This document shows, piece after piece, positions 176 to 11,115 of a DNA stretch of 20,955 bases. The notes beneath the pieces are model-generated. The model worked only from the letters and a program-made list of their open reading frames with translations, did no database searches and was not told the DNA's origin. This DNA is from a virus: the IMG/VR virus record IMGVR_UViG_3300043466_003819, positions 1-20,955 of that record; one strand, given 5' to 3'. Position 1 is the first letter of the stretch; every line of letters starts with the position of its first letter. The position numbers and the translations under genes were made by a program.

Positions 176-418
176 ATGAAAATAGAAGACGTAGTATTGT
201 ACCACAAGAAGTATAGAGGTAATAAAGTAACCTTCAACTCTAGAAAAGGGGCAGGAAAGGTTATAGAAGGAATAGCCGTACAGGTGGTAAAGGAACAAGG
301 AGGACTAATAATACTCAGAGACTATGATAACTTCCCACATTGTATATCAATATTAACATTAGAAATCGCAGATCAAGAAGCAGGGCTTCTTTCAAGCTCT
401 GTCTTCGACGAGATATGA
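176..418 (+). CDS. Hypothetical protein, 80 aa
   Basis: I place the start at 176 (MKIEDVVLYHKKY), not at the longer in-frame ATG at 143, because 176 lies one base after the previous stop and avoids overlapping that gene. The product is a small mixed alpha/beta protein with a KVTFNSRKGAGKVIEGIAVQ core and no recognisable catalytic motif. It lies between two common phage small-protein families. Its stop TGA overlaps the next start as ATGA at 415-418. An oddity is that the last 14 or so codons (367-410) coincide with a copy of a 44-nt structured element that also occurs twice in non-coding DNA at 897-940 and 1026-1069. The C-terminus may therefore be element-derived. Function unknown. Confidence 0.75.
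   Translation: MKIEDVVLYHKKYRGNKVTFNSRKGAGKVIEGIAVQVVKEQGGLIILRDYDNFPHCISILTLEIADQEAGLLSSSVFDEI
367..410 (+). repeat. 44-nt structured element, copy 3 (inside a coding 3' end)
   Basis: This aligns without gaps to 897-940 and 1026-1069. It begins CGCAGA and ends TCTTCGACG like the others. The 8-bp helix GCAGGGCT/AGCTCTGT (380-387 with 395-402, 7-nt loop, two G-U pairs) matches ACAGAGTA/TACTCTGT in copy 2. Two of the base pairs are changed on both sides (T-A to C-G, A-T to T-A), so pairing is kept while sequence changes. The alternative hairpin AAGAAG/CTTCTT (375-380 with 386-391) also fits. Confidence 0.7.
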
Positions 419-636
419 AAACAATCATTCATGTTAACCAGCATATAATAAAAGCTAATAGAAAGAACGGAGATAATAAACCAGTACTTACTGTTAAGAC
501 TTATAAAGAGAATAGGTACGGTCATGAAGTTGAAATAAACGGACCAAGTAAAGTGGTGTATAGTCCAGATAAGCCATTAAGTTGCGGTGCACATGTTTGG
601 ATAGAGACCAATGGAGAGGTAATAGTAATAAGATAA
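415..636 (+). CDS. Conserved small phage protein, 73 aa
   Basis: The start at 415 overlaps the previous stop (ATGA), which favours it over an in-frame ATG at 340 that would run through the previous gene. The protein begins MKTIIHVNQHIIKANRK and contains a HEVEINGPSKVVYSPDKPL segment followed by a beta-rich CGAHVWIETNGEVIV tail. I recall this pattern from many phage and phage-like genomes, where it has no assigned function. There are no membrane segments. The frame stays open for 44 codons past its TAA (to TAG at 769-771), which may be chance. It closes the three-gene cluster; no terminator hairpin is obvious after it. Confidence 0.8.
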   Translation: MKTIIHVNQHIIKANRKNGDNKPVLTVKTYKENRYGHEVEINGPSKVVYSPDKPLSCGAHVWIETNGEVIVIR

Positions 637-785
637 GAAAGGAAGTACCATAGAGGTATAGGAGTAAATAATATAGAAGATAATATAATAGATACTCCAG
701 CAATCGTAAGAAAGAATAATAAGAAAGACATAGGCAATACTGTAGAGAATATAATAAAGAATATAGTATAGAAACCCATTCATAG

Positions 786-894
786 ACCCGTCTAAGAACC
801 CGGTCTATAACCCGTCTTGATACCCAATCCATACGGCGAAGCCCGAGTAGGCTTCTTAGTCTACGACCCGTTTCTCTACCCAATCGATACCCGT
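786..894. repeat. ACCCG repeat cluster A (12-nt period)
   Basis: ACCCG or ACCCA motifs start at 786, 798, 810, 822, 866, 878 and 889, so the spacing inside each run is 12, 12, 12 and 12, 11. A related GCCCG occurs at 841. The same motif and spacing recur in cluster B at 1261-1440. Intervening bases vary, so the motif rather than the whole unit is conserved. Confidence 0.7.
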
Positions 895-896
895 AT

Positions 897-940
897 CGTA
901 GATTGAGAAACAGAGTATCTCACCTACTCTATCTTCGACT
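897..940 (+). repeat. 44-nt structured element, copy 1
   Basis: Reads CGTAGA at its start and CTTCGACT at its end. ACAGAGTA (910-917) can pair with TACTCTAT (925-932) with one mismatch, and TTGAGA (903-908) can pair with TCTCAC (918-923) with one mismatch. The two helices interleave, so they form either an H-type pseudoknot or two exclusive hairpins. Its first bases also form part of an inverted repeat TCTACGA (860-866) / TCGTAGA (896-902). Confidence 0.7.
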
Positions 941-1025
941 TATACATACGTATCACATAGGGAAGATAACTGGAGAGACATAGAGAGAACTACTGAGAAA
1001 CATAGTAAAAGGTAAGGGACTTTAT

Positions 1026-1069
1026 CGTAGATTGAGAAACAGAGTATCTCAATTACTCTGTCTTCGACG
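1026..1069 (+). repeat. 44-nt structured element, copy 2 (perfect helices)
   Basis: This is the best-paired copy. TTGAGA (1032-1037) pairs perfectly with TCTCAA (1047-1052). ACAGAGTA (1039-1046) pairs perfectly with TACTCTGT (1054-1061). Flanks CGTAGA (1026-1031) and TCGACG (1064-1069) can close the structure with one A-G mismatch. Connecting loops are only 1 nt if both helices are full length, so a pseudoknot would need a few pairs open; otherwise the helices are alternatives. Confidence 0.75.
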
Positions 1070-1956: not shown

Positions 1957-2072
1957 GTAGTTATAAAACAGTAGTAGGTATTACTAACTACCAGGCAAGG
2001 CCTACCCTCCAGTCTACTCTTCCGACTCTCTTTCAAAGCCAGGCCCCTTATAATATTCCTTTCTAATGTACC

Positions 2073-2103
2073 TAAAGATACGAACTATATCTTTGTTAGG
2101 CAA
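2073..2103 (-). promoter_or_regulatory. Minus-strand promoter
   Basis: On the complement, TTG (2103-2101), exactly 20 nt, then TATCTTTA (2080-2073) followed by GGTACATTAG. The TTG is preceded by a run of A and G (AAAAAAGTTGCC) as in the plus-strand promoters. It diverges from the promoter at 2157. Confidence 0.8.
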
Positions 2104-2156
2104 CTTTTTTAGTAACTTTTTTTTAATTTATAATGAGTATAAATAACGTATAGAAG

Positions 2157-5262: not shown

Positions 5263-5342
5263 AGTCAGGTGGCGGAATTGGGTCAAGCTATGGTACTTTT
5301 TAACAATACTTAAGCATACAGGTTCGAATCCTGTCCTGACTA
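5263..5342 (+). tRNA. Second tRNA-Leu-like sequence, possibly degenerate
   Basis: Acceptor arm AGTCAGG (5263-5269) pairs perfectly with CCTGACT (5335-5341). The T arm ACAGG-TTCGAAT-CCTGT (5318-5334) is perfect and identical to the first copy. The D arm is weaker (GC/GC, 5272-5273 with 5287-5288). GTACT/AATAC (5293-5297 with 5305-5309, one mismatch) gives a 7-nt loop TTTTAAC. Read literally, the anticodon would be TTA, which matches the stop codon UAA. The long variable arm of tRNA-Leu is missing. It is either an atypical or suppressor-like tRNA or, more likely, a decayed duplicate. Confidence 0.45.
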
Positions 5343-5374
5343 CAAAAATAAATTAAAAAAAGTTACTAAAATAG

Positions 5375-10482: not shown

Positions 10483-11115
10483 ATGTATAGAGATAAAATA
10501 AGCCTTCCCCAGGCCAAAGCCCTAGAATTAACAGGAGAGATTACAATTGTTGATTCTTCACCAGAATCTGTTTTGGCCTACCCCAAGGTAGGAAAGAAGT
10601 GGAAAGAGAACTACATTACACTACAATCTAAATATAGACATATATCTCCAGAAAAACTCCTTACCTTCCTATCGGCAAAATACCTTATAGAAGCACCTGA
10701 AGGATTAGTAGATGAAAATACCAATACATATTCCTGGAGATATTTCCATGGTGTGGAGAATTCTAAGATAAAAGAGAAATCTGTAGATAATATCGAATAT
10801 GTATATATCCTTGTGAATCCCGCCTACCCCTCTCTGGTTAAGGTAGGAATGACCATTCATGATGTTAATAGGAGAGTCACGTCGATAAACGCTACAGCCA
10901 CGGTTGAGGAATGGGTTCCAAAATTTGCTCTTCCTGTAAGGAAGGGTACGGCTATGAAAGTGGAAAAAGCCGTTCATAAACATTTTAGTTCTTCTAGGGT
11001 TTCCTCCGATAGGGGAGGTTCTAGAGAGTTTTTCAAAGTTACTCCTTTTGAGGCTTTTGATAAGATTCGTGAGGTAGGTGCATTATTCCAAGTGGGAGAA
11101 CCTGTTATTTATTAA
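10483..11115 (+). CDS. GIY-YIG superfamily protein with T5orf172-type domain, 210 aa
   Basis: The C-terminal half (about residues 105-190) reads YVYILVNPAYPSLVKVGMT, then NRRVTSINATATVEEW, KVEKAVHKHFSS and a REFFKV strand. That is the order of the T5orf172/Mug113 branch of GIY-YIG nucleases: paired Y-x-Y/V-G motif, Arg130-131, Glu161, His165, and the 'EFF' strand. The first 100 residues (KALELTGEITIVDSS, HISPEKLLTFLSAKYLIE) are of unknown type and may be a targeting domain. Family members are predicted DNA endonucleases; some phage copies are free-standing homing enzymes. No intron or split gene is visible beside it, so a free-standing or anti-competitor role is as likely. Activity is inferred. 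Confidence 0.8.
   Translation: MYRDKISLPQAKALELTGEITIVDSSPESVLAYPKVGKKWKENYITLQSKYRHISPEKLLTFLSAKYLIEAPEGLVDENTNTYSWRYFHGVENSKIKEKSVDNIEYVYILVNPAYPSLVKVGMTIHDVNRRVTSINATATVEEWVPKFALPVRKGTAMKVEKAVHKHFSSSRVSSDRGGSREFFKVTPFEAFDKIREVGALFQVGEPVIY

Follow-up and report, generated by a model that had tools for sequence, protein, structure and literature searches.

GTAG-type repetitive extragenic palindromes (REPs), the elements of the REP/RAYT system, are non-autonomous hairpins of 20-45 nt that carry a GYAG tetranucleotide just 5' of the stem and can occupy genes or gene ends (PMC3733652, PMC8266576). Rickettsia palindromic elements are CGTC-tagged palindromes inserted in frame within ORFs of a bacterial genome (cited in PMC3733652). 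The mitochondrial hairpin elements of sponges (RHE) and Allomyces consist of short adjacent hairpins that are inserted intergenically and are present or absent between close relatives, target duplication being absent in Allomyces (PMC2800124). The spread of REPs and of mitochondrial hairpin elements is still largely inferred from genome comparison. Hairpin segments of about 45-50 nt also occur in phage or organelle genes as the phage T4 gene-60 bypass segment and the mitochondrial byp elements. The 33- and 45-nt element presented here is shorter than Rickettsia palindromic elements and, if mobile, would rank with the smallest mobile DNA units so far described. A search of open-licence papers revealed no account of such elements from phages, which is weak evidence of novelty.

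The window, the whole stretch of 20,955 nt that was analysed, is a contig of a Flavobacterium phage related to Immutovirus immuto (77% identity across 48% of the window in a BLAST comparison), whose genome of about 160 kb includes T4-like baseplate genes. The element copies lie in a region of short genes and non-coding DNA to the left of a small-gene array, with the following features (slashes mark insertion points):

176..418, plus strand: ORF without known function from the ORF list, with copy 1 close to its end; the element is missing from the ends of the homologues in relatives
365..409, plus strand: copy 1 (site 1), 45 nt; gap-free empty site ggaa/GAGATATGA in L005, L006, L007, L008, L012, L014 and L019; filled in L109
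770..894, no strand: array of ACCCG-containing units of ~11-12 nt flanking the short form and copy 2; direct repeats, kept in relatives
835..867, minus strand: short form GTCGTAGACTAAGAAGCCTACTCGGGCTTCGCC, 33 nt, inside an ACCCG unit (AC/CCG); one 12-nt gap in alignment with the 45-mer; empty in immuto, L005, L006 and L008
895..939, plus strand: copy 2 (site 2), 45 nt, non-coding; empty in L005-L010 and L019; filled in immuto (66417-66461) and L126
940..1250, no strand: conserved non-coding stretch containing copy 3; about 73-79% DNA identity to relatives in alignments
1024..1068, plus strand: copy 3 (site 3), 45 nt, within the conserved non-coding stretch; empty site GGACTTT/GGTTAAAC in immuto, with equivalents in L005-L010
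1255..1450, no strand: second array of ACCCG-containing units; direct repeats D1-D3, also seen in alignment

The long form comprises 45 nt, starting with ATCGYAGA and ending with TCTTCGAC. The initial annotation had described three ungapped copies of a 44-nt unit, and all three copies were recovered: copy 1 is identical to the others at 30-31 of 44 positions and copies 2 and 3 to each other at 40 of 44, while the best non-copy match in the window reaches 23-24/44 and the copies' own reverse complements 23-27/44. The bounds did not hold, as empty sites place the start two bases earlier and the end one base earlier. The position of one copy inside the end of a coding region was correctly recognized: copy 1 adds exactly 15 codons in frame before the last two codons of ORF 176-418 (LE-IADQEAGLLSSSVFD-EI-stop), for which no match was obtained in Pfam or PHROG. 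This in-frame insertion of a palindromic element into an ORF resembles that of Rickettsia palindromic elements. Unlike the T4 gene-60 segment and byp elements, the site-1 element is open in frame, so that no bypass is needed; furthermore, the majority of copies lie outside coding sequence, with no endonuclease gene next to them.

Excision of the element in silico reconstitutes the sequence of element-free relatives. Joining the flanks of 365-409 gives a gap-free match (cattggaa/gagatatga) in seven relatives, the joined flanks of 895-939 were found in four relatives and in three more by multiple alignment, and those of 1024-1068 in six relatives including immuto (ggacttt/ggttaaac); L006 and L008 are near-identical at the locus and count once rather than as independent empty sites. 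The insert at site 3 cannot be slid in either direction, which fixes its ends as ATCG and CGAC and leaves no target duplication, and the ends at sites 1 and 2 are the same. Wherever element-free relatives could be aligned, the insertions are thus precise: their ends are constant, the target is not duplicated and the flanks have lost no bases. A fourth long-form site was identified in phage contig L131 at the end of another ORF, in a reading frame different from that at site 1; the element is absent there in L006, L010 and L126, and the boundary is only approximate. Duplicated coding sequence was rejected as a source of the copies, as homologous genes lack the element and the reading frames at sites 1 and 4 differ. 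Compared with the immuto copy at site 2, copy 3 differs at two positions and copy 2 at one, and copy 3 is therefore most simply read from these sequences as derived from the site-2 element and placed in site 3.

The initial annotation lacks a shorter relative of 33 nt, which lies at 835-867 of the minus strand and first surfaced as a weak covariance-model match; more copies were identified in L005 and L007. This short form aligns end to end with the 45-mer across a single 12-nt gap, the 12 missing bases being those of the middle. When the 45-mer template without its middle was scanned across 908,530 positions of related phage sequence, scores of 25-26/33 were confined to the three short forms and the 5' parts of the 45-mers themselves, with unrelated sequence reaching at most 22/33. 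Gap-free empty relatives exist for the short form in the window and an empty counterpart of the L007 short form is present in L019, whereas no relative is cleanly empty at the L005 position. Each of the three short forms is located within ACCCG units and points in the opposite direction to the long form.

In total, seven positions are occupied by the two size classes, all inside one locus of ~1.2 kb. Each size class has so far been observed in one direction only, the long form at four positions and the short form at three in the opposite direction, and this orientation bias is indistinguishable from chance or common descent. Either a local mechanism or the tolerance shown by non-coding DNA may account for the restriction to a single locus. 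Beyond the related contigs, immuto was the only match among the phage records searched; plasmids contained no copies, a pattern scan of genome contigs revealed no long form, and 39 further-related records yielded no convincing additional long-form copies. Neither the long form (covariance model with strict filters) nor the short form (pattern search) was found in 397 Flavobacteriaceae genomes; these negatives are limited by the strict filters and by sampling at the level of the host family. Weak matches in L246 and L248 and nearly all matches of one search were judged by sequence and context to be due to chance, as were those of another search except L247 and L249.

Two hairpins can form in both size classes: a small one on the 5' side (TCG-YAGAT-CGA or GTC-GYA-GAC) and, after it, the main one, with CTTC at the end of its 3' arm. 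Single-stranded DNA folding predicts the main hairpin ending in CTTC in the long forms except copy 2, which folds weakly, and adds the small 5' hairpin in L126, L131 and the three short forms; in these predictions, two adjacent hairpins are favoured in most copies. Across the six distinct long forms, the two-hairpin structure pairs in 97.6% of cells, compared with 32-43% for slid controls. The main helix had been described as covarying, which is modestly supported by two compensatory pairs among six distinct rows, with the observed score reached by 5 of 500 shuffles; covariation in the main stem is suggestive but weak, as the six rows are related. Details of that description require revision. 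The helix GCAGGGCT/AGCTCTGT is that of copy 1 rather than of copy 3, to which it had been assigned, and the helix of copy 2 is not perfect, its 3' arm being TACTCTAT with a C-A mismatch, while the perfect arm TACTCTGT is found in copy 3. Two pairs are indeed altered on both sides, and the change from A-T to G-T affects two others instead of one.

The same annotation had proposed that a second helix (TTGAGA/TCTCAA) interleaves with the first to form an H-type pseudoknot or a two-state switch. All 6 bp of this helix form in copy 3 alone; copy 2 has 5 bp, and copy 1, L126 and L131 have 4 bp, so that half of the distinct sequences are limited to 4 bp, and 0-1 nt would be left to span it. A pseudoknot is not favoured because the interleaved helix is short and almost no loop remains; both it and the switch were rejected on grounds of geometry and conservation, and DNA folds favour adjacent hairpins.

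Exact empty sites for three copies and the short form, together with further copies in related phages at both the same and new sites, strongly support the earlier suggestion of a small mobile element, and mobility is well supported by genome comparison. The repeats probably represent a very short mobile DNA element of Immutovirus-like phages that is non-autonomous, with forms of 45 and 33 nt that would move in trans as a single-strand hairpin. With fixed ends and without evident coding capacity, the element would need an enzyme supplied in trans; it brings the phage no obvious benefit. We infer both this mobilizing enzyme and a single-strand intermediate. The enzyme, from phage or host, would recognize the folded single strand, cut at the hairpin-defined ends and join the element to a new site during phage replication, and copies would persist where harm is least, namely in non-coding DNA and at small-gene ends. 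The hairpin plan, together with insertion that leaves no target duplication, agrees with the single-strand (HUH-type) chemistry of REP/RAYT and IS200/IS605 systems. The lack of a linked transposase and the few copies in one locus, unlike those of a free-roaming transposon, count against this reading. If the proposal is true, the phages would offer a small, tractable system for the movement of a hairpin-only element, with immuto as a cultured member growing on Flavobacterium sp. LMO8.

The element shares the absence of target duplication with IS200/IS605-type elements but has no fixed short target 5' of the long-form insertions, the left flanks GGAA, CCGT, CTTT and AAAA having no tetranucleotide in common. 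Its quasi-inverted ends (TCGNAGA/TCTTCGA) are not accompanied by the target-site duplication of a MITE of a DDE transposon. Adjacent hairpins, duplication-free insertion and variable presence are shared with the mitochondrial hairpin elements, a comparison of how the elements work that implies no claim of common descent; unlike these, the element resides in a phage genome and has two defined sizes and conserved ends fixed by empty sites. It is conceivable, though doubtful, that the 33/45-bp hairpins constitute a phage-specific class of mobile elements of one repeat-rich locus, moved by an enzyme of the phage itself that is unrelated to RAYT or IS200/IS605 transposases.

Alternatively, the copies could be REPs of the Flavobacterium host moved by a host RAYT (TnpA-REP), which we regard as unlikely. 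The plan of the element, 33-45 nt with a hairpin preceded by G(T/C)AG, fits that of REPs (PMC3733652, PMC8266576), both forms are single-unit palindromes that, in predicted folds, form hairpins within or close to the 20-40 bp typical of REPs, and RAYT genes occur widely in the host family (35 of the 199 Flavobacteriaceae genomes lie above the NF047646 cut-off). However, the tag is neither invariant nor terminal: two short forms, copy 1 and L131 have GCAG in place of GTAG, and the tag lies three bases inside the insertion boundary rather than at one end beside the stem. The boundary dinucleotides likewise are not CT or CA, at which TnpA-REP is reported to cleave. REPs are dispersed in high copy number in bacterial genomes, whereas the phage element is restricted to one phage group with 1-4 copies per phage record, and neither form is present in the 397 Flavobacteriaceae genomes. 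Furthermore, inspection of the flanks of 30 RAYT loci revealed no such element, and no Y1_Tnp domain was detected in 13 related phage records.

Spread by homing endonucleases, in which double-strand breaks made by GIY-YIG, HNH or T5orf172-type enzymes are repaired with a hairpin patch, appears improbable. Such repair has reportedly been proposed for the phage T4 gene-60 bypass segment and for mitochondrial hairpin elements. Homing nucleases are encoded by these phages (T5orf172 at 10483-11115 of the window, GIY-YIG in L131, HNH in immuto), every insertion is clustered in one locus, and the Allomyces hairpin elements are likewise free of target duplications (PMC2800124). Against this, no endonuclease gene lies beside the insertion sites in the window, no common recognition sequence is visible in the flanks of the seven positions, and repair-patch insertion alone does not explain identical ends at unrelated sites.

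A role of the 45-mer as a structured RNA, or as one that processes itself (pseudoknot, switch or ribozyme), with copying into new sites via reverse transcription or reverse splicing, is very improbable. The compensatory changes in the main stem and the location of all four long-form sites on the strand of the neighbouring genes would agree with such an RNA, but the short form is inserted antisense, the pseudoknot helix is short and sterically strained, and an Rfam scan gave no match at the element, in line with the initial statement that it is no known riboswitch or ribozyme. Nothing indicates the regulatory or RNA-level role that had also been considered. Precise loss of several immobile ancestral copies from most relatives is formally possible but barely credible, as each site is empty in most relatives examined (with joined site-3 flanks in six, immuto among them) and a history with three scarless removals of 45 bp and a further one of 33 bp is much less parsimonious.

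Several additional features were noted. The ACCCG arrays (window 775-894 and 1255-1450) have a unit spacing of about 11-12 bp, are kept in relatives, with an AACCG version in L131, and could represent a phased protein-binding array or an origin-like region. No ORF is evident in the conserved stretch at 940-1250, which has about 73-79% DNA identity among relatives, and a non-coding RNA or cis site is possible. Directly past the site-1 gene, the junction GAGATATG (window 410-418) marks a gene-swap point that is followed by various genes in relatives, and a second small palindromic repeat (GTTAAAGC...CTTTAAGT) at 1870-1960 differs in copy number among relatives. Further downstream, ARAGORN identified a tRNA (window 5263-5343) with anticodon TTA, which would read UAA stop codons, a leucine-like body and an Rfam tRNA score of 32.4 bits; no such TTA-anticodon tRNA was present in 15 related loci. 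The immuto isolates 2-6A and 3-5A (L261 and L262) differ at about 22-29 kb by several small-gene gains and losses, yet their total lengths are only 44 bp apart; a fresh insertion of the element was rejected as the cause, as both isolates have the copy and the difference is the net result of several gene changes. Many small genes are preceded by a promoter-like module (AGTTG...TATCTTTAGGTATCAATAATTAAAA), with sites in the window including 2053-2131 (minus strand), 2154-2219 and 2586-2684, and one copy of this module is directed leftwards into the non-coding locus.
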